This document shows, in pieces, positions 49,506 through 63,157 of a stretch of DNA of 64,000 bases. The DNA is from a bacterium. Its GTDB lineage: Bacteria; Zhuqueibacterota; QNDG01; JAGLOF01. The stretch spans positions 50,255 to 114,254 of the forward strand of contig JAGLOF010000001.1 of NCBI GenBank assembly GCA_023139105.1, given 5' to 3'. The notes under the pieces are model-generated. The model searched no databases. It was given only the letters and a program-made list of their open reading frames with translations, and had not been told where the DNA came from. The first letter of the stretch is position 1; each line of letters starts with the position of its first letter. The translations under genes and the position numbers were made by a program.

Positions 49506-51179
49506 TTATCTGATTGTACCCACATATTGGGTAGTATACTGTTTACGCCGAATCTCGGGATTGGAGTAGTCGGGCAAGAGCATGGGTGAAACACGATCTT
49601 CCGTGGCTACATTGTCCTTATCCAGACCTGCGTTAAACTCTTTTACATGATTCAGCGTGAGTTTACCGCCTTTGTAACCGTTCTTGACATATTCCGAAGC
49701 AGAGACACCACATATCCGGCCATAAACCAATACATCAAGAAGAGAATTCCCCATAAGACGATTTTGTCCGTGAATACCACCTGAAACTTCACCGGCTGCA
49801 AAGAGACCGGGAACAGATGTTTCGCCACGTTTGTTAATCTCCAACCCACCATTTTGATAATGCAGTGTCGGGAATACAAGCATAGGCTCTTTGGCAATAT
49901 CAATGCCATAGCGATGAAATAGTATCCACTTACCGGGGAATTCTTTACGAACTGTGCCTTCACCGTTAAGCATGTCAATCATTGGTGAATCAAGCCAGAC
50001 ACAGGGTTTACCGCCAGGTGTAGGAACACCCTTGCCACGTACCATACACTCCCTTATAAAAGCTGATGCTTCGATATCACGGGGTTCACGTTCATATACA
50101 AACTGCTCACCATCTATATTCAGCACATTAGCACCGGCACCCCGGAATTTTTCAGTGATCAACAGACCTTCAGATTGCTCGGGAAATACTGCACCTGTAG
50201 GATGATACTGTACCGTATGTAAAAAACAGAGAGGCACACCGGCTCTGTAGCCCATAATCAAGCCATCTGCCGTGGCACCGTAATGATTTGTACACATAAA
50301 ATTCTGAATATGCAGACGCCCTGAACCACCTGTAGCCATTATTACAGACTTAGCCTTGACTATCAGATATTCTTCTGTCTCCATATTGTAGAGCACGGCA
50401 CCGGCAGCATGTCCTTTATCATTGAGAATAATCTCAACCGCGGGACTGAATTCAATTACTTTGATATCAGTGGGGAAATTCCTGGCTTCATCACGAAGAG
50501 TACGCATAATCTCCGCGCCGGTTATATCACCTGCAGAGTGCATACGTTTGCGGCAAGTTCCTCCACCGTGCATTGTAGAGAGCAGGCCGGTATCATCCTT
50601 GGACAACATGGCTCCCAGAGATTCAAGCCAGCCAATAACACTGGGGGCATCTGAGACAAGTGTCTCAACCAATTCCGGTACATTTTTGAAGTGTCCGCCA
50701 CCCATACAGTCAAGATAATGGTAATAGGGTGAATCTTTGGTCGATTTAGAGGCTGCCTGTATACCACCCTCCGCCATCATGGTGTTGGCATCGCCCAGAC
50801 GAAGTTTGGTGGCCATTAGCACTTTCATGCCTTGTTTCCGGGCCAGTAAAGCCGCTGCCGTACCGGCACCGCCGCCACCCAGGATAAGAACATCTGTCTC
50901 ATAATCAATTTTGCTGAGATCAATCTTATCAGGATCAACACGAGATTTGGCATGCAGCAAGTCTACCATCTCATGTGCAATACGATATCCTTTATTGGGG
51001 CCGACCAGGATCTCACGTCGGCCTTCTTCCTTGAAATCAGGATGATACTGGAGAATCTCCTCCCGTTCTTTCAAGGTCATAGGCTGAAATTCCTCACCCC
51101 GTTTCTTGCGCTCCACGCGCTGGGGGCGGGTTTTCTCAACCTTTTTAATCAATTCTTTTAGTTCTGGCGTGTATGGCAT
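49506..51179 (-). CDS. FAD-binding fumarate reductase/succinate dehydrogenase-like subunit (TfrA-like)
   Basis: LGGGGAGTAAALLARKQGMKVL; HGGGTCRKRMHSAGD; QYHPTGAVFPE; GGIHGQNRLMGNSLLDVLVYGR. Confidence 0.9.
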   Translation of the reverse strand: MPYTPELKELIKKVEKTRPQRVERKKRGEEFQPMTLKEREEILQYHPDFKEEGRREILVGPNKGYRIAHEMVDLLHAKSRVDPDKIDLSKIDYETDVLILGGGGAGTAAALLARKQGMKVLMATKLRLGDANTMMAEGGIQAASKSTKDSPYYHYLDCMGGGHFKNVPELVETLVSDAPSVIGWLESLGAMLSKDDTGLLSTMHGGGTCRKRMHSAGDITGAEIMRTLRDEARNFPTDIKVIEFSPAVEIILNDKGHAAGAVLYNMETEEYLIVKAKSVIMATGGSGRLHIQNFMCTNHYGATADGLIMGYRAGVPLCFLHTVQYHPTGAVFPEQSEGLLITEKFRGAGANVLNIDGEQFVYEREPRDIEASAFIRECMVRGKGVPTPGGKPCVWLDSPMIDMLNGEGTVRKEFPGKWILFHRYGIDIAKEPMLVFPTLHYQNGGLEINKRGETSVPGLFAAGEVSGGIHGQNRLMGNSLLDVLVYGRICGVSASEYVKNGYKGGKLTLNHVKEFNAGLDKDNVATEDRVSPMLLPDYSNPEIRRKQYTTQYVGTIR

Positions 51180-51212
51180 GACGGAGTCTCCAATGGAAAA
51201 GAGTTAAAGTCC

Positions 51213-51974
51213 TTAATCAACATTGACATAGTTGGTGTCGCCGGGAATCCAGTCTTCCGGACCCATATGCGGCTCCATCTCGCGCTCTGAGTATACTTTT
51301 TTCAATGTATCCAAATTCATAGCCTTAAGTTTGGCTATACCTTCTGTCCACTGGCCCTCTTCGGCAGAATTGATCGCTCGCTTTAAATGAGCAGATCGGG
51401 GCTGCATATGCAGTGCATATAGACGACGCGCCAGTATGGCAATATAGAACTGCACCTCTTCAGCCGGGCAACGACCGGAACAAAGCCCGCACATTACACA
51501 GTCAAATGAGCCCTTGGCAACACCTTCAATATCTCCCCGTATCGCCTTGGACATATAACCCAGCACATCGATATCCATGGGACATGAACGCGTGCATGTA
51601 CCGCAACCGATACATTTGTACAGCTCAGGATAAAGAGCGGTAAACACAGAGCCATTGGGTTCAAGATCGGCAATATTGTATGTCGCCTTGTTACCCGGGA
51701 AAAAGGGCAGTTGCGCGATATACATATTGGGTTGAACCACGGTCTGACAAGCCAGGCCTACTTCAATCTTGTATGAATCGGGATACCGAAACACAGTACC
51801 ACAGGCCCCACAGATACCTCCACGGCAACCGCAACCACGTACCAGTTGATAGCCCGCATATTCCAGTGCTTTCTGAATCGTCAGCGATGAAGGTACTTCA
51901 TAACATTTTCCCATGAAAAAAATCGGCACCAGCTCATCTTTGCTTTTTACTTTTTCCTCACTCATGACAGACAC
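51213..51974 (-). CDS. FeS subunit (2Fe-2S plus two 4Fe-4S), fumarate reductase/TfrB N-terminal-like
   Basis: CGCRGGICGACGTVFR; CIGCGTCTRSCPMDI; CVMCGLCSGRCPAE; no C-terminal CCG domains. Confidence 0.85.
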   Translation of the reverse strand: MSVMSEEKVKSKDELVPIFFMGKCYEVPSSLTIQKALEYAGYQLVRGCGCRGGICGACGTVFRYPDSYKIEVGLACQTVVQPNMYIAQLPFFPGNKATYNIADLEPNGSVFTALYPELYKCIGCGTCTRSCPMDIDVLGYMSKAIRGDIEGVAKGSFDCVMCGLCSGRCPAEEVQFYIAILARRLYALHMQPRSAHLKRAINSAEEGQWTEGIAKLKAMNLDTLKKVYSEREMEPHMGPEDWIPGDTNYVNVD

Positions 51975-52395
51975 CCTCTTCAGTTAGCGTCTTCTCTTCC
52001 AAATTCAATGGCCCCAAATTGCGAATGGTCTCAGTGAATTCATTCATAGTCTCAACATACTTCTTTCCCTCTGCCGCCGAAATCCATTCCAGGCGCAGGC
52101 GTTTCGGATCAAGCCCTAATTGCTCCATCATTGTCTTGAACAACGTCACGCGGCGTAAGGTTTTATAATTACCCTCAACATAATGGCAGTCACCGGGATG
52201 ACATCCGCCAATAAACACACCGTCAGCACCTTCCTTGAAGGCATGTAAAATATGTTGTGGATCGATACGACTGGAACACATCACCCGTAAATTTATACCG
52301 TTAGGTGAAAATTCCAAACGAGATGTGCCGGCCAGATCAGCTCCGGCATATGTGCACCATTTACATAAAAAACACATTATCTTCGGTTCAAACAT
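51958..52395 (-). CDS. mvhD: MvhD-like [2Fe-2S] electron-transfer subunit
   Basis: FLCKWCTYAGADLAGTSRLEF; GADGVFIGGCHPGDCHYVEGN. Confidence 0.93.
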   Translation of the reverse strand: MFEPKIMCFLCKWCTYAGADLAGTSRLEFSPNGINLRVMCSSRIDPQHILHAFKEGADGVFIGGCHPGDCHYVEGNYKTLRRVTLFKTMMEQLGLDPKRLRLEWISAAEGKKYVETMNEFTETIRNLGPLNLEEKTLTEEGVCHE

Positions 52396-52397
52396 AA

Positions 52398-54368
52398 TTA
52401 ACCTCTAAGAATGGCTTTGACCATAGAAAAAATCTGACTATCAGACTGATTTAGCTGCTGTGCAGCACCTGCAGGACAGGCGGCTGCACATGCACCACAG
52501 CCTTCACAGAGTACTTCATTAACCTCAATCACTTTCCTTACAGCATTTAAAGTTCTGGCACCATACGGACACATGGAAACACATATTCCGCAACCTGAGC
52601 AAAGTTCCTCAATTACAGGAACAATAGTTGGCGCATGCATAAGTTCATCCTTGGCGAATAATGCGCCTACTTTTGCTGCTGCTGCAGATGCCTGTGCCAC
52701 AGCCTCAGGGATATCCTTGGGACCAAGAGCTGCACCGGCCAGATAGAAACCCTGATTTAATGATTCCACCGGACGTAACTTGGGATGAGCCTCGGCCAAC
52801 CAGCCATTACCGTCGATAGAAATTTTTAATTTCTTCATCAACTCCGGTACACCATCAGCCTTTGTCATTGCCATTGCCAAAACAACCATGTCTGCTTCTA
52901 CTTCTACTTTTTGGCCCGTTAAAGTATCAACACCCCAGACAATCATTTTGTTGCCTTCTTTGAAGATTTTGGAAACCTTACCTCGCAGATAGAGTATGGA
53001 TTCATCATCCGTGGCACGTTGATAAAATTCATCAAAATTCTTACCACCTGTACGCACATCAATATAGAAGACAATTGCATTACCATCGTGCACACGATGT
53101 TTGTAGAGCATGGCGTGTTTTGCAGTATACATACAGCATATTTTGGAGCAATAGGAATTATGATTCTCGGGATCACGTGAACCGGCACACTGAATAAAGA
53201 CAACATTCTTGGGTACCTTACCATCAGAGGGACGTTGAACCTTGCCACCTGTAGGACCGGAAGCGGAGAGAATACGTTCAAACTCCAGGCCGTTGAGCAC
53301 ATCTTCATAATTCTCACCGCCGTACTCACCCAGAGCCTTCATATCATAGAGATCATAACCCGTGGCCACAACAACTGCACCCACTTCTTCCTCAATAATC
53401 TCTTCCTTCATATCATAATCTATGGCCTGAGCGTCACAGACATCTTTACACTTGCCACAACGAATGGGCAGTGTTCCCAGGCAGCTCTCCATATCCAGCG
53501 TATAAGTACCTGGCACAGCCTGGGGGAAAGGCATATAGATAGCTTTGCGGAAGGAGAGTCCCATATTGTATTCATCGGGCACAATCTGTGGACAGACATC
53601 AGCACATTCATTACAGAGCTTACATTTATCCTCATCAACAAATCGTGGTTTCTTTTTAATGCGAACCTTAAAATTGCCGACAAATCCGGAGATTGATTCT
53701 ACTTCAGAGTAAGTCATCAGTTTGATTTTGGGATGCCGCGTGACCTCCACCATCTTGGGAGTCAGAATGCATTGAGAACAATCCAGCGTGGGAAATGTCT
53801 CTGAAAGCTGTATCATCTTGCCGCCCACCGAAGGCTCTTTCTCTACAACAATTACCTCATAACCCTGATCGGCTATATCCATAGCCGCCTGTAAACCGGT
53901 GACACCTCCACCAATTACCAGAGCTTTTTTGAACACACCGACCTTTATTGGTTCCAAATCTTCGTTCTGAATAGCCTTTTCTACCATGGATTTGACTATT
54001 TTAACAGCCTTTACAGTGGCCTTATCCCGGTCTGGATGAACCCATGAATCCTGTTCACGAATATTAGCTATCTCAACCTGATGAGGATTCAAACCCGCCA
54101 ATTCCGCTGCACTCTGAAATGTCTTCTCGTGCAATGTGGGTGAACAAGCGGCTATAATTACAGAATCCAGCTTATCTTCTTTAATTTTATCCAGCACCAG
54201 CTGCTGACCCGGTTCAGAACACATATATACATAATCTGTAGAGAACTCAACACCAGGATAATCTTTAAGTAATTCAGCTACTTTCTCAACATCCACTACT
54301 CCGGCAATATTAACACCGCAGTGGCATACAAAGACGCCTATGCGCTTCTTTTTACCATCGTCTTTCAT
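52398..54368 (-). CDS. hdrA: HdrA-like bifurcating flavoprotein
   Basis: GVFVCHCGVNIAGVVDV; VIGGGVTGLQAAMDIADQGY; LDCSQCILTPKM; two C-terminal 4Fe-4S motifs. Confidence 0.95.
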   Translation of the reverse strand: MKDDGKKKRIGVFVCHCGVNIAGVVDVEKVAELLKDYPGVEFSTDYVYMCSEPGQQLVLDKIKEDKLDSVIIAACSPTLHEKTFQSAAELAGLNPHQVEIANIREQDSWVHPDRDKATVKAVKIVKSMVEKAIQNEDLEPIKVGVFKKALVIGGGVTGLQAAMDIADQGYEVIVVEKEPSVGGKMIQLSETFPTLDCSQCILTPKMVEVTRHPKIKLMTYSEVESISGFVGNFKVRIKKKPRFVDEDKCKLCNECADVCPQIVPDEYNMGLSFRKAIYMPFPQAVPGTYTLDMESCLGTLPIRCGKCKDVCDAQAIDYDMKEEIIEEEVGAVVVATGYDLYDMKALGEYGGENYEDVLNGLEFERILSASGPTGGKVQRPSDGKVPKNVVFIQCAGSRDPENHNSYCSKICCMYTAKHAMLYKHRVHDGNAIVFYIDVRTGGKNFDEFYQRATDDESILYLRGKVSKIFKEGNKMIVWGVDTLTGQKVEVEADMVVLAMAMTKADGVPELMKKLKISIDGNGWLAEAHPKLRPVESLNQGFYLAGAALGPKDIPEAVAQASAAAAKVGALFAKDELMHAPTIVPVIEELCSGCGICVSMCPYGARTLNAVRKVIEVNEVLCEGCGACAAACPAGAAQQLNQSDSQIFSMVKAILRG

Positions 54369-55306
54369 AGATTCACCTCCACATCCTCAGCATTTTGCTT
54401 AATGTCAAATAGCGGACGGGGATCACACAGATGTTTATCCAGACCCAAAGTTTCTACATCAGCCCCTAATGCCCAGGCTAAAAGCTGTGTAAAATAAAGC
54501 ACTGGAAATCCATTGAATTCCAAATACTCTTCTTTAATACGGTCCTGACGGGTATCCATATTATAATAACAAAGAGGACATGACAGGGCCACCACATTGG
54601 CACCGTTCATCTTAGCCGAGTTCAAAACCCGGTAAGAAGGTTCATTGGAGGTCTCCGGCATGGATGCTGAAAGATAGGAGCCGCAGCATTCCTGCTTAAA
54701 GGGAAAGTCGACCACAGTACAACCAATGGCATTCAAGAAATCTTCGAAGATCGTGGGGGTCTCGGGATCATCAATGGCCACTTCCTTCTGGGGGCGGAGC
54801 AGGCGGCAGCCATAATAGGGTGCCACTTTAATATGGGAGAGGTCCCGTTTGACCAGGGATTTGAGATGACCCAAACCCACTTCATCCCGAAGATATTCCA
54901 GAAGGTGAAGCACTTGTACATCACCGTTGTAGGATTCAAAGTGGGTGCGCTTCTCCTTGGTCGTTGGGTCGATAAGAATATCGTCCGCCAAATACTCATT
55001 GACTCGCGTATGTAATGTCGGATTGTCCAGCATGGCCTTATTGGCCCGCTTTAATACGGCAAAACAAAATGCGCAAGTAGTCACCACTTTGCTGCCTTCC
55101 TCAATCTCCACCTGACGCAGGATACGGACAGGCGGAATCAGCCCATGTATCTTTTCGGTGATCAAGGGATATTCAGCCCCGCAACAGGTCCACCCTTCGG
55201 GTTCAACCAAGTCCGTATCTAAACGGGCCATGGCCTCGCGGGTAGAGTCCTCCAGATTGGTGGCTTTTTCCTTGAGGGTGCAGCCGGGGTAATAATGGAC
55301 TCTCAT
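54365..55306 (-). CDS. hdrB: HdrB-like subunit (two CCG domains)
   Basis: YYPGCTLKEKA; WTCCGAEYP; CAFCFAVLKRAN; YYGCRLLRP; ECCGSYLSAS; CPLCYYNMD. Confidence 0.94.
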   Translation of the reverse strand: MRVHYYPGCTLKEKATNLEDSTREAMARLDTDLVEPEGWTCCGAEYPLITEKIHGLIPPVRILRQVEIEEGSKVVTTCAFCFAVLKRANKAMLDNPTLHTRVNEYLADDILIDPTTKEKRTHFESYNGDVQVLHLLEYLRDEVGLGHLKSLVKRDLSHIKVAPYYGCRLLRPQKEVAIDDPETPTIFEDFLNAIGCTVVDFPFKQECCGSYLSASMPETSNEPSYRVLNSAKMNGANVVALSCPLCYYNMDTRQDRIKEEYLEFNGFPVLYFTQLLAWALGADVETLGLDKHLCDPRPLFDIKQNAEDVEVNL

Positions 55307-55429
55307 ACGGTTTTCCTTCGTTTATTAGACTAAAGATCAGCGGCATTGTACATCAGCATGGTTCCTTTCCTCAATCCCTCTTAACTCCCCAAACCAATGC
55401 TCAAAGCCAGCGCCTCTGTGTCTCTACAA

Positions 55430-55837
55430 TTATTTTGCGAATTTCTTATAGACCGCCACAAGCACCTGCTGTGGCAGTTCCTTGGCCAGCTCCGGCTGTA
55501 CATCATCTGGTCCCCAGAAATCTTTCCCTTTGGGTTCCAGCAAATGCCTTATGGCCTCACACACTGCGGCAATGTCAATGCCCTTGGGACAGCGTCCCTG
55601 ACATGCAAAGCAACTGGCACAAAGCGTGAGTGTTTTGGAACCAATAATATCTTCTTCCTGCCCCATCTGCACTTTCCGTATAATCTGATTTGGCAGAAGA
55701 TCCATTTCCTGTGCCATGGGACAACTGGCAGAACAACGCCCGCATTGATAACAGCGGTAGACATTATCACCGGTCAGCTCATTGACACGATTAATAAATT
55801 TCTTTTCATTTTCACCGATTTTCAATTTGACTCGCAT
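55430..55837 (-). CDS. hdrC: HdrC-like 4Fe-4S subunit
   Basis: CYQCGRCSASCPMAQEMDLLPNQIIRKVQMG; CASCFACQGRCPKGIDIA. Confidence 0.94.
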   Translation of the reverse strand: MRVKLKIGENEKKFINRVNELTGDNVYRCYQCGRCSASCPMAQEMDLLPNQIIRKVQMGQEEDIIGSKTLTLCASCFACQGRCPKGIDIAAVCEAIRHLLEPKGKDFWGPDDVQPELAKELPQQVLVAVYKKFAK

Positions 55838-55868
55838 GCGATTTCTCCGGTTTCGGGACCAGCTACCA

Positions 55869-57329
55869 CTAGTCGCGGCGCAATGTCTCCACCAATTCGC
55901 GATGATGGTCGTAAATTTTTAAAATCATGGGCATCTGCCCTGGCAGTGTATGTGTAGCACAACCAAAACATGGATCATATGCACGGAAACCCATCTCAAC
56001 CTGATTCAAAAGAGCATCATCCACTTTACCATTTTTAATGAGTCCCATGGCCGCTTTCTTAACAGACATATTAATTGCGGCATTGTTATTTGTTGTACCC
56101 ACAATTAAATTTGCTTCTGTTATCATACCACGTTCATCTGTTTTATAGTGATGATATAGTGTGCCGCGAGGTGCTTCAACCACACCAACACCTTCGGTAG
56201 GTATTTGAGTAGGTTGAATACGATACTCCGGCCCGGCAATCTCAGGATCTTCTGCCAGTTCCACCCAGCGTTCTGCCGCATAGAGCATTTCAATGACGCG
56301 AGCCCAGTGTGTGGCCAGGGTAGCGTGTACAGGCTTACCGCCCAGTGTATCATACATTTTTTCATATTCGGCATGGGCAAGGGGTGTAGCCAGTCCATCT
56401 GCAGCATTACAGCGGGAAAGCGGTGTTGCTTTGTAAATGCCCGATTCGGGACCATCTACAAAACCTTTCCAGCCAATATTTTTTAAATATGGAAACTTCA
56501 AATAAGACCATGGTTCCACACGCTCTTCTATGTGATCCAGATAATCGGCGGCCGCAAACTTTACAAACTCCTTGCCATCAGGACCAGTAACTCGGATTTT
56601 GCCTTCATAGAAGTTGCTTAGATTGTTCTCATCAACCAGGCCCATATTATATGTACGGTGAGAGAACATATCTGAGAGTATGAGATCCACATACTCTTGA
56701 TTTTTCAGGACAATGTCATTGAAAATTTGAATAGTAAACTGCCCGAATTCAACAGCTTGGCGGCCGGCCTCAAGAATTTCCAGACGATCAGCAGCCGTTA
56801 GTCCCTTAGACATGCCGCCGGGCAATGCGCCCACCGGATGGACAGCTTTACCAGCCATTTTTTTGATCAGTTCATGACAGAGTCCGCGCATATTGATAAC
56901 CTTGGAACCAATCTCAATGCCGACCTTGTGTATGACGCCTAAAATGTTACGTTGCGCCTTGGGTGCATCGGGCCCTACTATAAAATCAGGACCGCCCAGT
57001 GCATAAAAATGGGTGGCATGATCAGTAACAAAAAAGATCATATAGAGCAATTCTCTGAGCATTTTTGCAGTACGAGGCAGTTCCATTCCATATACTGCGT
57101 CTCCAGCCTTGGCAGATGCCAGCAGATGCGCCTCAGGGCAAACACCGCAGATACGTGAAGTTATGCGGGGCATCTCTTCAACAGGACGGCCCTGACAAAA
57201 TTTCTCAAATCCGCGCAATTCGGGAATCTGGAGATAGGCATCGGCAACATTACCGGCATCATCCAGAAAAATGTCTATTTTCCCATGTCCTTCCAAGCGG
57301 GTGATAGGGTCAATGGTTATTTTTTTCAT
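55869..57329 (-). CDS. mvhA: [NiFe]-hydrogenase large subunit (group 3, MvhA-like)
   Basis: L1 RICGVCPEAH and L2 DPCFGCATH both intact; C-terminal extension. Confidence 0.95.
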   Translation of the reverse strand: MKKITIDPITRLEGHGKIDIFLDDAGNVADAYLQIPELRGFEKFCQGRPVEEMPRITSRICGVCPEAHLLASAKAGDAVYGMELPRTAKMLRELLYMIFFVTDHATHFYALGGPDFIVGPDAPKAQRNILGVIHKVGIEIGSKVINMRGLCHELIKKMAGKAVHPVGALPGGMSKGLTAADRLEILEAGRQAVEFGQFTIQIFNDIVLKNQEYVDLILSDMFSHRTYNMGLVDENNLSNFYEGKIRVTGPDGKEFVKFAAADYLDHIEERVEPWSYLKFPYLKNIGWKGFVDGPESGIYKATPLSRCNAADGLATPLAHAEYEKMYDTLGGKPVHATLATHWARVIEMLYAAERWVELAEDPEIAGPEYRIQPTQIPTEGVGVVEAPRGTLYHHYKTDERGMITEANLIVGTTNNNAAINMSVKKAAMGLIKNGKVDDALLNQVEMGFRAYDPCFGCATHTLPGQMPMILKIYDHHRELVETLRRD

Positions 57330-58282
57330 ATCTTTCTCCCTAAGATTGAGCCGGGCAGACTGAACCTGTAGAAAGTGCCCACCGGGTCAACAATCTGATC
57401 GGATATTCTCTGTATCTCTTCGGGATCGTCCGCTTCAATTACCGAGGCGATTGCGCCCGCCAATTTACCACCCAAATCTTTAATGCCTTCAGCCGGACCG
57501 TAACAACCTCGGCAGCCCATATTTACCTGAGGACAAAGCGCACCACAACCGGCCTGAGTTCCGGGACCATTACACACAAGCCCCTGTTCCAGGAGACAGA
57601 TATCAGGATCAACCTCACCAATTTCATGGGGCCGCAAAAATTCTTTTATACGTTTTTCATCTTTACTTCGATCACACTCCTCACAGACAGTCTTTGGTGA
57701 CACACCAATCACAGAGCCTTTGGGAGGCAGATCACCTGAGAGTATCGTTTGAATGACAGCCCAAATCTGCGCGGCCACCGGTGGACAACCCGGCATTTTA
57801 TAATCAATATCGACTACTTGCTCAAGAGTACGTACATACTTGAACATGCCTGGCAGCGTCAGTTCACCTGCTTCAATAGATGTAGATTTTTGAGGATGTA
57901 CTTTTTCCGGATTGACTGTGGAAGGCGACTCTTCAAAAGAGTAGCGGCAGATTCCTTCGTCATCTGTCAGATTACCCAAACCGGGGATGCAGCCTTCAGA
58001 TGCACAAGAGCCATAAGCCACCAACACCTTTGATTTACGGCGTAATAATTGAGCGATATGAAGATTTTCCTCATTACGAATGGCACCGTTAAAGAGGCAG
58101 ACATCAATCTCTCCATCGGCCATTTTCTCAACATCTTCATACTTTGTGTCCATAAGACATGGACAGAATACCAGATCCACGGCCCGGTCCACATCCAGGA
58201 TCTTCTCCCGAATATCCAGAAATGCAATCTCACAGCCACCACAACTGGCAGCCCAATAGATTGCAAATTTGGGTTTACCCAT
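57326..58282 (-). CDS. mvhG: [NiFe]-hydrogenase small subunit (MvhG-like)
   Basis: YWAASCGGCEIAFLD; AYGSCASEGCIPG; PGCPPVAAQIW; CPQVNMGCRGCYGP. Confidence 0.94.
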   Translation of the reverse strand: MGKPKFAIYWAASCGGCEIAFLDIREKILDVDRAVDLVFCPCLMDTKYEDVEKMADGEIDVCLFNGAIRNEENLHIAQLLRRKSKVLVAYGSCASEGCIPGLGNLTDDEGICRYSFEESPSTVNPEKVHPQKSTSIEAGELTLPGMFKYVRTLEQVVDIDYKMPGCPPVAAQIWAVIQTILSGDLPPKGSVIGVSPKTVCEECDRSKDEKRIKEFLRPHEIGEVDPDICLLEQGLVCNGPGTQAGCGALCPQVNMGCRGCYGPAEGIKDLGGKLAGAIASVIEADDPEEIQRISDQIVDPVGTFYRFSLPGSILGRKI

Positions 58283-58324
58283 GAATCATCTCCTTAAAAA
58301 TAATTATCAATGGAAACAATAAAA

Positions 58325-58369
58325 ATGCGATGACCGGGTCACAAATTAACAGTGACTCTGCCATCGCAT
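58325..58369 (-). terminator. Terminator-like hairpin upstream of hydrogenase operon (attenuator candidate)
   Basis: Minus strand ATGCGATGgcagaGTCACtgttaatttGTGACccggtCATCGCAT followed by TTTTATTG. Confidence 0.6.
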
Positions 58370-58476
58370 CATAATTCTGGAAATAGCGTACAATGATCCG
58401 TTGTGTACGTACACACATAGGGATAAAAACGGTCTGATAACCGGCTAATCACAGGAGATAACACTCTGATCTCCAC
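58369..58476 (-). CDS. Possible 35 aa leader peptide (GTG start)
   Basis: VEIRVLSPVISRLSDRFYPYVCTYTTDHCTLFPEL*; preceded by TTGGAGGTTCAATC; stop codon abuts the terminator-like hairpin. Confidence 0.35.
   Translation of the reverse strand: MEIRVLSPVISRLSDRFYPYVCTYTTDHCTLFPEL
58402..58415. promoter_or_regulatory. 14 bp perfect palindrome TGTGTACGTACACA, possible operator
   Basis: Direct reading. Confidence 0.35.
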
Positions 58477-58547
58477 GATTGAACCTCCAAGTATTAGGGT
58501 GATATACCGAATTAAACGAATTAAACTAATCGATTCCGATTCAAGTA

Positions 58548-58580
58548 TTCAACCCGGGACATATTAATTCCCGAGTTGAA
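58548..58580. promoter_or_regulatory. 12 bp near-perfect inverted repeat in LysR-hydrogenase intergenic region
   Basis: TTCAACCCGGGA cattaattaa-type spacer TCCCGAGTTGAA (one mismatch). Confidence 0.45.
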
Positions 58581-58797
58581 TTTCACCAAACTTGTAGACT
58601 GTGTAAAAGTAAAAAATGAATTAAAAACCTCTGAAACAAAGCTGGTTGCCCTGTGAGCAACATTCCATCCATACGCATGATAAATATTTCCCCATTATTA
58701 ATCAAGTGAAAAAATCTTATGTTTATTATTAGTTGAACTTATCAATAAATCTTTGTATATTGGGTTAGCATCTTGAATAATATGAGAGTTAGCCCAT

Positions 58798-59694
58798 ATG
58801 GAAATGCAACAATTAAGAGGCTTTTATTATAGCGCAAGGCTAAAAAGTTTAACAAAAGCCGCTGAAAAACTGTCCGTAACCCAATCTGCGGTCACACAAC
58901 AGATCAAAAATCTCGAGCGAAATCTGGATGTTCAACTTTTCAATCGCTATGGCCCCAGAAAAGAACTCACACCGGAAGGCCAGCTACTCTTTGATTTGGT
59001 TGCACCCGTGGTGCAGGAATTTGAGGGAATTCAATCTACTTTTGATGACCTGAAAGGCCAGGAACACGGGGCAATGACAATTGCAGCCACTACTTTGATG
59101 ATTATGAACTTCCTGCCCTTTGTAGTAAAACGATTTGCAAGACAATACCCGCATGTACGCCTGATTATAAGAGAACGCCGCTGGGATGAGATAATTGAAC
59201 TGGCTCAATTAGGCGAGATAGATATGGGTATATCTCCTATTGTCAAGATGCCGCAAAACCTTCAATACTTCCCCCTGGAACCCATAGGTCGTATGCTTAT
59301 AACCGGCTTGGGACATCCTCTGGCTCAAAAGAGCCTGGTTACATTGGCCGATATTGCCCAATATCCGATGATTGCCTATGAAACCGGTACTGTGGCAAGA
59401 GGCGAGGTTGACCGTGTTTTTCAACGGGCACAACTTTCTCTGGAAGTTGTACTTGAGGCCACAAATGCTGAGACTATTAAACGTTATGTTGAGATGGGAA
59501 TAGGAATAGCCATTATCCCAAAAATAGCACTGACGCCCGAACAGACACCACGCCTTGTTGCCATTCCTGTGCACGACCAATTTGAGGAAACCCATTACGG
59601 AGTTATTTTGCGAAAAGGTAAGCACCTTACTGCCTGGGCCAAAAACTTTTTACTGCTGTTGAATCCGGCATTGCATGACAGGCTGCATCAATAG
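58798..59694 (+). CDS. LysR-family transcriptional regulator
   Basis: MEMQQLRGFYYSARLKSLTKAAEKLSVTQSAVTQQIKNLERNLDVQLFNRYG. Confidence 0.96.
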   Translation: MEMQQLRGFYYSARLKSLTKAAEKLSVTQSAVTQQIKNLERNLDVQLFNRYGPRKELTPEGQLLFDLVAPVVQEFEGIQSTFDDLKGQEHGAMTIAATTLMIMNFLPFVVKRFARQYPHVRLIIRERRWDEIIELAQLGEIDMGISPIVKMPQNLQYFPLEPIGRMLITGLGHPLAQKSLVTLADIAQYPMIAYETGTVARGEVDRVFQRAQLSLEVVLEATNAETIKRYVEMGIGIAIIPKIALTPEQTPRLVAIPVHDQFEETHYGVILRKGKHLTAWAKNFLLLLNPALHDRLHQ

Positions 59695-59702
59695 AATACG
59701 GG

Positions 59703-60146
59703 CTATAAAAACATATGCAGCAGATAAACATCCAGTTCTTCAATTCTGGATAAAGCCTTATCATTTGTTATAAGAGCGGCACTATCTGTTTGCATGGCCA
59801 TTGCAGCCTGCATCATATCCGGCAGGGGCAGTCCATACTTTGCTTTAAGGGCACCGGCTAATTCTCCGGCCTGGTAAGGGATATCCGTGGGGACAATATT
59901 CATGAATCTACGAAGAGCGGAACGGCAACGGTCGGCAAGCTCCAGCCTGTTCATTGCGATGGGTTTTATAATTATCTCAGCTACTGTGATGGGTGTCACA
60001 ACTGCTTGAAAAACATTTCTTTCCGCCTGGCTAATAATAAACTCCGCCACTTCTCCGTATTGAGGACTGTCTTCAAACAAATAAATGAAAACATTGGTAT
60101 CAATTACCACTCCTTTTTGTCCATTTAAACCAACCGGTATCTTCAT
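59703..60146 (-). CDS. PIN-domain toxin (VapC-like)
   Basis: VVIDTNVFIYLFED; TVAEIIIKP; LPDMMQAAMA; ITNDKAL. Confidence 0.9.
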   Translation of the reverse strand: MKIPVGLNGQKGVVIDTNVFIYLFEDSPQYGEVAEFIISQAERNVFQAVVTPITVAEIIIKPIAMNRLELADRCRSALRRFMNIVPTDIPYQAGELAGALKAKYGLPLPDMMQAAMAMQTDSAALITNDKALSRIEELDVYLLHMFL

Positions 60147-60376
60147 GCACGTTCATCCCATTCCCGTCTTATCCCCCCAATATAGTCAACAGCATCTATG
60201 TCGTTCCGCAGTTCACGCAAAATTCCACGTACAGGCTGTGCCCCGATGGGTTCAACAATGATAATGCCATCCTTAACCATGACATTAACTTTCTGATTGG
60301 GTTTAAGCCCAATTTTTTTTCGCTCTTTGGCGGGAATGACTATTTGGTAGCGCATTCCTACTGTTGCAACTGACAT
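60143..60376 (-). CDS. AbrB/MazE-type antitoxin
   Basis: MSVATVGMRYQIVIPAKERKKIGLKPNQKVNVMVKDGIIIVEP; overlaps toxin start; AGGAGGGA upstream. Confidence 0.9.
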   Translation of the reverse strand: MSVATVGMRYQIVIPAKERKKIGLKPNQKVNVMVKDGIIIVEPIGAQPVRGILRELRNDIDAVDYIGGIRREWDERA

Positions 60377-60568
60377 AATAGCTCCCTCCTCTAAATTTTT
60401 CATATATATTTTAACATTTCATATTAAAATATAAATTCCATACACACCTGTCAAGCATTTTTTAAAAATTTTGCCCCAATCCTTTGTGTAATAACCTTTT
60501 TCTACATAAGCATTGAAAGCGTGTTTGTCGGATTTGAGAAGAGTAATCCGCCCTACCACTTAACGCCT

Positions 60569-60692
60569 GTCTCTGCGAGGGAGCCTTCTTTTCCAGGCGA
60601 CCGCGGCAGTCTCCTAAAGGATCAGCGGGAACGGTTGATTAACGACGCTTGCGTAAGGGGGATTGCCACGGCAAAAAACGCCTCGCAATGAC
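60569..60692. repeat. ~124 bp interspersed repeat, copy 1
   Basis: GTCTCTGCGAGGGAGCCTTCTTTTCCAGGCGACCGCGGCAG...CCTCGCAATGAC. Confidence 0.9.
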
Positions 60693-60715
60693 AAAAAGCC
60701 CGGGAAGGCATAATG

Positions 60716-60982
60716 TCATTCATTATAATGCCCGCCAATGGCAAAAATGTAGATTGATTTATCGTCAAATTTATATATTATTCTGTCTTTGTGTGATAAG
60801 CGCCTGGACCAGAACCCGGATAAGTTGTTTCTTAAGGCCTCAGGCTTTCCTAATCCCCTTGCAGGATCATTACGCTGCATTTCCTGTATAATTCTACATA
60901 AATTTTTATGCAGCTTTTTATCAGTCGATCTTAATTTTTCATATTTTTGCCAGGTTTTTCCTTCAAATACTATTGATCGCAT
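60716..60982 (-). CDS. yoeB: YoeB/Txe-family toxin
   Basis: MRSIVFEGKTWQKYEKLRSTDKKLHKNLCRIIQEMQRND...GFWSRRLSHKDRIIYKFDD. Confidence 0.92.
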   Translation of the reverse strand: MRSIVFEGKTWQKYEKLRSTDKKLHKNLCRIIQEMQRNDPARGLGKPEALRNNLSGFWSRRLSHKDRIIYKFDDKSIYIFAIGGHYNE

Positions 60983-61235
60983 CCAATTCCTCATTTGAAG
61001 GTTTATATCCTTCACCTGTATGATGTGTTTTAAATGATTCCGAGATTTGCTTCATCAATGATGAATTCTGCAATATATATAAAGTTTCCTGATCCCTCTC
61101 CCAATCCTCAGCACTTAATACAACAAAGTCTCTTCCTTCTCTTCTTGTTATTTTTACAGGCTCATGCAGATCAATTGCCTGATCAACATAATTTTTTAAA
61201 TTTGCCCTGAATTTATTTACGGATAGCTCAATCAT
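60963..61235 (-). CDS. yefM: YefM/Phd-family antitoxin
   Basis: MIELSVNKFRANLKNYVDQAIDLHEPVKITRREGRDFVVLSAEDWERDQETLYIL; 20 nt overlap with yoeB. Confidence 0.9.
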   Translation of the reverse strand: MIELSVNKFRANLKNYVDQAIDLHEPVKITRREGRDFVVLSAEDWERDQETLYILQNSSLMKQISESFKTHHTGEGYKPSNEELDAINSI

Positions 61236-61340
61236 TTTTCTGTACCTCAACTGTTCAAATTTGTAACTGCCTCTAAATGTACCACCATGCCGTACATTTG
61301 TCAAGAGGAGTTTTATCTTCTGTTAACACAAATCCTTTCC

Positions 61341-61475: not shown

Positions 61476-61597
61476 GTCTCTGCGAGGGAGCCTTCTTTTC
61501 CAGGCGACCGCGGCAGTCTCCTAATGGATCAGCGGGAACTGTAAATCAACGACGCTGCGTAGGGGGATTGCCACGGCACAGAACGCCTCGCAATGAC
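61476..61597. repeat. ~122 bp interspersed repeat, copy 3 (tandem with copy 2)
   Basis: Same sequence and orientation as copies 1 and 2. Confidence 0.9.
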
Positions 61598-63009
61598 ACG
61601 AAAAGGGAGTTCGTAGTATCATTAAACAGCATTAAAGCTGCATCTTCACCAGCGGTCGTGCTGCTTGAAGACTGTTTGCCAACATTATCCGCACGACCTG
61701 CAACATATTCACGCGGCTCATCACATCGCTCCGAACCACCTCTTATCAGCCCAAAAACCACACTTAACATATGCAACCATGTCCCTTGGTGTGCAGCTTT
61801 CATTTTCGCAAATGCTTCTTTTTGGTCATCGGCTGAAATCTCAGGGCCTAAATCAGAGGGCCTTGAGCCAAAAAAGGCAGGAGAAATTTTGTGGGTCAAA
61901 TGGCCAATTCGATTAACATATTTTTTAGCAATCATTGCTTGCCATACGTATGGTCTGAAATCATTCTTTTCAACCCACCCAATGCTGTGATGCACACGAC
62001 TGGAAAGATCGGCGCGAATTTCCAATTGTCGGTGGCCGCTACTTTCTTTTGAGTCATGATGTTTCTCTTCCTCAAGCAGTTGTAAACGCGCAAAATTCTC
62101 ACCCGTAAGGTTGTACTTGCTCAACATGGGATGGTTATTATTCTCCTTTAACCAGCGAAACAACGCAACTGAATCCCACTGCCCAAGACCCCAGGCATCA
62201 TTGGTACGACCGATCCGTACATGACCACCAATCATACCCTCAATTAATAATGTTTGAACTGTCTCGAGGTCAAACACCACTTCATTCATCAACCTCGCAA
62301 TTAAATTATCACGATAAGCATCAATCTCAGCCACTGCCATACCAATGCGCCCATAGGGTTTCCTCATGTGCGTATCAAATACATTTCTCAGCTTATCTGC
62401 ATCAAGTATCTTTTCAAGATACTCTATAACCTTATCCAATTGAAGCGCCTTACGTACTGCCGCACTAACCGGTACTTCTATATCAAATCGATTCGGGATC
62501 GTAAAACGAAGCTCTCCTTTTTCGTTTCGCTTATAACGGAGCACAGTCCCTTTATCAATGTGGAGTATATGCAATAAAATATTTGCACTGTTACGACGCC
62601 CTGCTGTTTCCTTCCGGTAATGCTTTTTTGCATTTTTAACAATAATCGCACGCAAGTCAGCAAGCAGGGTTGCGTCAATGTGGCGAGTGCCGTTTTGAAT
62701 TTCAGATACTCGTTTCATAAAGTGACTGAGCCCCATTTGAAAAACTTCCTTATGGTTTTTATTGACTTGTTTCATATCTGGGCGATCAATAAGTTGCTGA
62801 AAAACCTTAAAGGCTTTCATAACATCCTTATCATCTGTTTTGATGATCGTGTGAATTTGCTCGATCAAATACTCATCCACGGTCTGACCATCTTCATTGC
62901 GAACGACTGGCCAAGAGGTATCAGTCGATGCTTTTTTCTTGAGCTTCATCAGCGCACTCTGTCCCTGATGTGTTGCCAGTGTTGAAGAAGTTGGTTTTAT
63001 AGTTGACAT
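61546..63009 (-). CDS. Uncharacterised protein with repeat-derived C-terminus
   Basis: ORF 61546..63105; preferred start MSTIKPTSSTLATHQGQSAL at 63009 with GGAACACC upstream; tail SLRGVLCRGNPPTQRR lies in repeat copy 3. Confidence 0.65.
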   Translation of the reverse strand: MSTIKPTSSTLATHQGQSALMKLKKKASTDTSWPVVRNEDGQTVDEYLIEQIHTIIKTDDKDVMKAFKVFQQLIDRPDMKQVNKNHKEVFQMGLSHFMKRVSEIQNGTRHIDATLLADLRAIIVKNAKKHYRKETAGRRNSANILLHILHIDKGTVLRYKRNEKGELRFTIPNRFDIEVPVSAAVRKALQLDKVIEYLEKILDADKLRNVFDTHMRKPYGRIGMAVAEIDAYRDNLIARLMNEVVFDLETVQTLLIEGMIGGHVRIGRTNDAWGLGQWDSVALFRWLKENNNHPMLSKYNLTGENFARLQLLEEEKHHDSKESSGHRQLEIRADLSSRVHHSIGWVEKNDFRPYVWQAMIAKKYVNRIGHLTHKISPAFFGSRPSDLGPEISADDQKEAFAKMKAAHQGTWLHMLSVVFGLIRGGSERCDEPREYVAGRADNVGKQSSSSTTAGEDAALMLFNDTTNSLFVSLRGVLCRGNPPTQRR

Positions 63010-63157
63010 GGGTGTTCCTTTATTGTTAAAAGCGGCCGTGTTATGTAATTTGATAATATATGAATGATTGCAGTGAATGCAATAGCGGGAGTTCACAAAC
63101 AACACCCCTCATGCTTTCATCACGACCGAAGAGTGAAAGGCTCTACCTCTTGATGCT

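Follow-up and report, generated by a model that had tools for sequence, protein, structure and literature searches.

The hydrogenase operon and its upstream region

The window (the entire 64,000-nucleotide stretch of DNA analyzed here) carries on its minus strand a hydrogenase operon that begins with mvhG, and an intergenic region of 515 nt separates this gene from a divergent gene coding for a LysR-family regulator. The best matches of the regulator are to CysB family models, and it also matches selenium-associated LysR models, in both cases below the cut-off. The region is organized as follows:

49506-57329, minus strand: remaining genes of the operon, mvhA, hdrC-, hdrB- and hdrA2-like genes, mvhD, and tfrB- and tfrA-like genes (profile matches)
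57326-58282, minus strand: mvhG, first gene of the operon (best match NCBIfam VhuG, below the cut-off; Pfam PF01058)
58324-58370, minus strand: intrinsic terminator hairpin with T-rich tail TTTTTATTGTTT (-23.2 kcal/mol; equivalents in five relatives)
58369-58476, minus strand: leader ORF of 35 codons, GTG start and TGA stop, encoding the peptide VEIRVLSPVISRLSDRFYPYVCTYTTDHCTLFPEL
58430-58443, minus strand: small hairpin within the leader ORF, with TTTTTATC after it (pattern scan)
58484-58490, minus strand: TTGGAGG, ribosome site of the leader ORF (duplex energy)
58548-58580, minus strand: stable hairpin of 12 pairs with no U run, in the leader ahead of the ORF (sequence and leader fold)
58677-58705, minus strand: promoter TTGATT-17-TATCAT (scan; hexamers at the aligned place in six loci)
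58706-58760, minus strand: conserved A/T-rich block, TTATAATAAnTATAAG-like, 5' of the promoter (alignable in all six loci)
58798-59694, plus strand: divergent LysR-family regulator

Beyond the regulator, two type II toxin-antitoxin pairs lie in tandem on the minus strand (59703-61304), PIN with a MazE-like antitoxin and YoeB with a Phd/YefM-like antitoxin, and a 519-aa ORF without a Pfam match occupies 61546-63105 on the same strand.

Of 12 genomes searched in the same class, four besides that of the window encode an MvhG homologue with 70-77% identity, and there were no further ones at this level in the phylum. A contig scan added another locus (L013), whose MvhG is 78% identical to that of the window, the closest among the matches listed, and no other contig among those matches had a matching operon head. 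The L013 contig is binned as Bacteroidales, which could reflect a binning error or a transfer. The compared set consists of the window and five related loci (L009, L010, L011, L012 and L013), six loci in total. A divergent LysR gene linked to mvhG is present in all of them; four full-length orthologues in the relatives are 56-60% identical to the regulator of the window, and in L013 the contig ends within the gene. All six share one layout, in which the divergent LysR gene and a promoter block are followed by a leader not alignable between loci and, just ahead of mvhG, by an intrinsic terminator. The TTGA-17-TA hexamers and the A/T-rich element preceding them align in 6/6 loci. In the window, this conserved promoter sits some 300 nt upstream of the hairpin and, judging by its position, transcription would start at ca. 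58670. Since the LysR gene is divergent, we take LysR to bind at the A/T-rich block, which is probably its operator. The leaders 3' of the promoter block are ca. 220-390 nt long (ca. 390 nt in the window), and no alignment across the six loci was possible between this block and mvhG. The only motifs shared by the six leaders were the T-rich tails and the mvhG ribosome site, with no conserved protein-binding RNA motif.

A terminator at a conserved position

The hairpin of the window is stable, contains GC pairs and is directly followed by a U run. When the last 200 nt were shuffled 150 times at the dinucleotide level, no shuffle reached its classical terminator score (D = 15.4). The initial annotation had described a two-part hairpin, 8 bp outer and 5 bp inner, ca. 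40 nt upstream of mvhG; the distance is correct (41 nt), as are the five inner pairs, but the outer stem is longer, with 11 pairs plus one isolated pair. In the window and in L009, inspection by eye revealed no T run on the opposite strand, so the hairpin would act towards mvhG only.

Across the six loci, the terminator D values range from 1.7 to 15.5, and the last hairpin base is located at -42, -50, -64, -61, -49 and -123 with respect to the mvhG ATG, leaving a gap of 41-63 nt in five loci and 122 nt in the sixth. The combined shuffle P is 4e-8, a value that treats related loci as independent. The terminator sequences are unrelated to each other, and the maintenance of their position despite this sequence turnover indicates function. 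Background rates were obtained by sampling ca. 0.7 Mb of contigs from these genomes. Of 80 upstream regions of divergent genes, 13 had in the same zone a hairpin-plus-T site with an energy of -8 kcal/mol or better, three of the 13 being mvhG loci, which gives at most ca. 13% for other divergent genes; at least two of the non-mvhG sites look, by eye, like the ends of small ribosomal protein genes left unannotated by the gene caller. In three Aminicenantes loci with an mvhG 69-70% identical and without the LysR gene, no terminator was seen on inspection, and the mvhG upstream regions in other phyla had no comparable LysR-leader-terminator layout. No promoter could be aligned between the terminator and mvhG in the six loci, which, together with the promoter block conserved in all of them, argues for an explanation based on a leader terminator. 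These comparisons make a conserved leader terminator ahead of the hydrogenase operon well supported and favor its being a control point, and premature termination very probably does occur in the leader.

Short ORFs ending at the terminator base

The 35-codon ORF (58476-58369 on the minus strand) is as first described, with its GTG start preceded at 7 nt by TTGGAGG, whose duplex with the anti-SD sequence has an energy of -10.7 kcal/mol. It also ends at the base of the hairpin, as had been claimed, its TGA sharing two bases with the 5' end of the hairpin (the first two of the latter), and the peptide was rightly said to be devoid of an obvious amino-acid run: no run of codons of the kind found in trp-type attenuators is present. 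An ORF of at least 30 codons with its stop at the hairpin is expected in ca. 11-12% of shuffled leaders, and in 0.8% when a strong ribosome site was also demanded. Searching the family with the leader peptide recovered only the peptide itself, the remaining matches being due to chance, and there was no match in Pfam. Within the ORF, the small hairpin and the TTTTT after it (58443-58425, minus strand) are a possible candidate for an RNA polymerase pause site. Cysteine sensing, suggested by the presence of Cys codons in five of the leader ORFs (window, L009, L010, L012 and L013), was rejected by eye because their number is close to that expected from base composition and their positions disagree.

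In five of the six loci, an ORF of 19-36 codons stops at 7 nt or less from the terminator base, as listed here with the stop given relative to this base:

Window: 35 codons, stop at +1
L013: 30 codons, stop at -2
L010: 36 or 9 codons, stop at -4
L009: 35 or 42 codons, stop at +6
L012: 19 codons, stop at +2
L011: 32-codon ORF running through the terminator, from 131 to 33 nt before mvhG, with coding-like codon usage (P 0.004)

In L013, L010 and L009, the ORF ending at the terminator base is the sole leader ORF of at least 19 codons. Compared with shuffled leaders in which the terminator was kept, the agreement of the ORF ends has a nominal P of ca. 1e-4, and of 4e-4 with a demand for a ribosome site, while P is 0.25 for ORFs reaching or crossing the terminator when a site of -6.5 or better is required; it should be noted that the ORF criteria were set post hoc and that these P values count related loci as independent. 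The conservation of hairpin and ORF among relatives, proposed initially as a check, had a mixed outcome, with the position of the terminator (6/6) and the ORF end (5/6) retained and the hairpin sequence and peptide not.

The distance between stop codon and terminator is what sets these leaders apart. Among 507 long ORFs sampled in four genomes of the clade, 24 had good gene-end terminators, which start 8-90 nt past the stop codon (median, 28), none closer than 8 nt. The stops of the leader ORFs are within ca. 7 nt of zero, although these ORFs were picked for ending near a hairpin, which makes the contrast illustrative and no independent test. In Escherichia coli, termination is ca. 90% when the stop codon lies 28 bp ahead of a terminator and <10% when it lies 5 bp ahead, a repression that is lost once translation is uncoupled, and in amino-acid attenuators the stop codon is >20 bp away from the terminator (PMC4824070). 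With a distance of ca. 0 nt, the leaders resemble neither ordinary gene ends nor trp-type attenuators in layout, and fit a terminator that a translating ribosome would suppress. A terminator lying no more than 100 bp into a coding region is nevertheless efficient, as ribosomes are still behind (PMC4824070), and the leader ORF has only 105 nt, so a pause of the polymerase would be needed.

Leader translation as a putative switch

We consider control of the terminator by translation of the leader to be the best single mechanism, with a probability of about one half. We infer from the arrangement of the leader where transcription starts, that it terminates in the cell, that the ORF is translated and shields the hairpin, and in which direction this acts. 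The whole mvh-hdr-tfr operon would be transcribed from the single LysR-associated promoter at ca. 58705-58677 through the leader of ca. 390 nt, and the terminator 41 nt before mvhG would halt most transcripts unless its folding were prevented. A ribosome on the leader ORF would reach the stop codon, which lies over the hairpin base, and cover the 5' arm of the terminator, allowing the RNA polymerase to proceed into mvhG. With the ORF untranslated or the ribosome lagging, the terminator would fold and the operon would be off. Of the translation-coupled attenuation originally suggested, the leader terminator (in six loci, with an upstream promoter) is strongly supported and the classical amino-acid type is not; it is the geometry that argues for coupling to leader translation, and such a switch is plausible but unproven. 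The leader peptides are unrelated among loci, codon usage in the window ORF is not coding-like (P 0.83), and the ORFs of several relatives start with TTG or have weak ribosome sites, all of which count against shielding. On the other side is the L011 ORF, which crosses the terminator with coding-like usage; that of L013 is perhaps coding-like (P 0.06), and a regulatory ORF need not have a coding bias. More tentatively, the leader might be evolving rapidly with nothing but its geometry conserved, the sole requirement being a short ORF whose end coincides with a terminator.

The strongest of the other explanations, although we deem it unlikely, is that the terminator is a real control point where a protein or the state of the polymerase sets read-through, the ORFs being due to chance. 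The protein could be a processive antiterminator or the LysR regulator. In agreement with this reading, the terminator is conserved in 6/6 loci and the ORF peptides are not, and each of the five genomes has a second type of NusG-family match with a lower score, possibly a paralogue. However, the NusG-like gene of the window's genome adjoins a polysaccharide-type epimerase gene on another contig and is not near the hydrogenase operon, and control by a NusG paralogue was rejected because the gene is unlinked. Besides, no conserved RNA motif to which a protein could bind was found in the leader, and the agreement of the ORF ends exceeds chance. At L137:1297-1827 (minus strand), the NusG-like protein is encoded next to a UDP-GlcNAc 2-epimerase-like gene and is probably an antiterminator of a polysaccharide operon.

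Less probable still is a fixed partial terminator, a hairpin that lowers expression or yields a short leader RNA without any switch. That no antiterminator was found, and that conserved sequence is limited to the promoter block and the mvhG ribosome site besides the position of the terminator, would be expected from it, but a weaker promoter would serve equally, and a position kept under complete sequence turnover, together with the ORF geometry, suggests control. We give little credit to an ordinary terminator belonging to a small gene (the leader ORF) or to an sRNA (the leader), followed by a separate mvhG promoter. The ORF does have a good ribosome site, and small genes with end terminators, such as those of ribosomal proteins, precede other genes here. 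Against this, its stop is at a distance of about zero, as opposed to the 8-90 nt (median, 28) of gene ends, the peptide is unconserved, without a Pfam match and without coding codon usage, and in five loci only ca. 41-63 nt are left for a second promoter. Finally, amino-acid attenuation or a riboswitch with alternative hairpins is highly improbable despite the leader ORF with its terminator and its two Cys and three Tyr codons, given that upstream pairing of the terminator 5' arm does not exceed that in shuffled leaders (0.30 versus 0.53 in the window, 3' arm left out; never above shuffles in the six loci), that no Rfam covariance model matched the window region (at E 5) or the five relatives (at E 1), that the leaders are unalignable, and that the distance from stop to terminator is ca. 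0 instead of >20 bp (PMC4824070).

If leader translation does control the terminator, the hydrogenase/heterodisulfide reductase operon would be coupled to translation as such (the supply of ribosomes or the energy state) and not to one metabolite, and an energy-metabolism operon of uncultured bacteria would be gated by the translation of a peptide whose sequence is irrelevant. The conserved feature would be a distance, to which Rfam-type searches would be blind but that could be found by the spacing from stop codon to terminator, and a general device overlooked by homology searches is possible. None of the open-access papers searched describes an Mvh/Hdr-type operon controlled by a leader terminator. 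The closest parallel may be pyrBI attenuation in E. coli, in which a ribosome on pyrL close behind the polymerase blocks the terminator. As there, a leader ORF would bring the ribosome onto the terminator with no need for an antiterminator hairpin, and a hairpin with a U run within the ORF could act as a pause site. However, pyrL runs through the terminator, whereas the ORFs described here stop at the hairpin base and cross it only in the L011 locus, and the hydrogenase operon has no known link to pyrimidines. The tR2 reporter similarly has a stop codon a few bases from an intrinsic terminator, at which a translated ORF represses termination, although that is a synthetic construct with a full-length gene (PMC4824070) and this is a natural leader ORF of 35 codons. 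The bmrCD operon and other ribosome-mediated attenuators (PMC4191407) also have a leader peptide and an intrinsic terminator before the operon, but they control antibiotic-resistance genes and sense ribosome-targeting drugs, and here the operon is that of a hydrogenase complex. Attenuators of the trp/his type share the short leader ORF followed by a terminator ahead of a metabolic operon. Trp-type attenuation is not supported by the sequence of the hydrogenase leader, since it has no codon run, antiterminator or conserved peptide and its stop is at ca. 0 nt, not >20 bp, from the terminator (PMC4824070); a ribosome that directly shields the terminator is a better fit.
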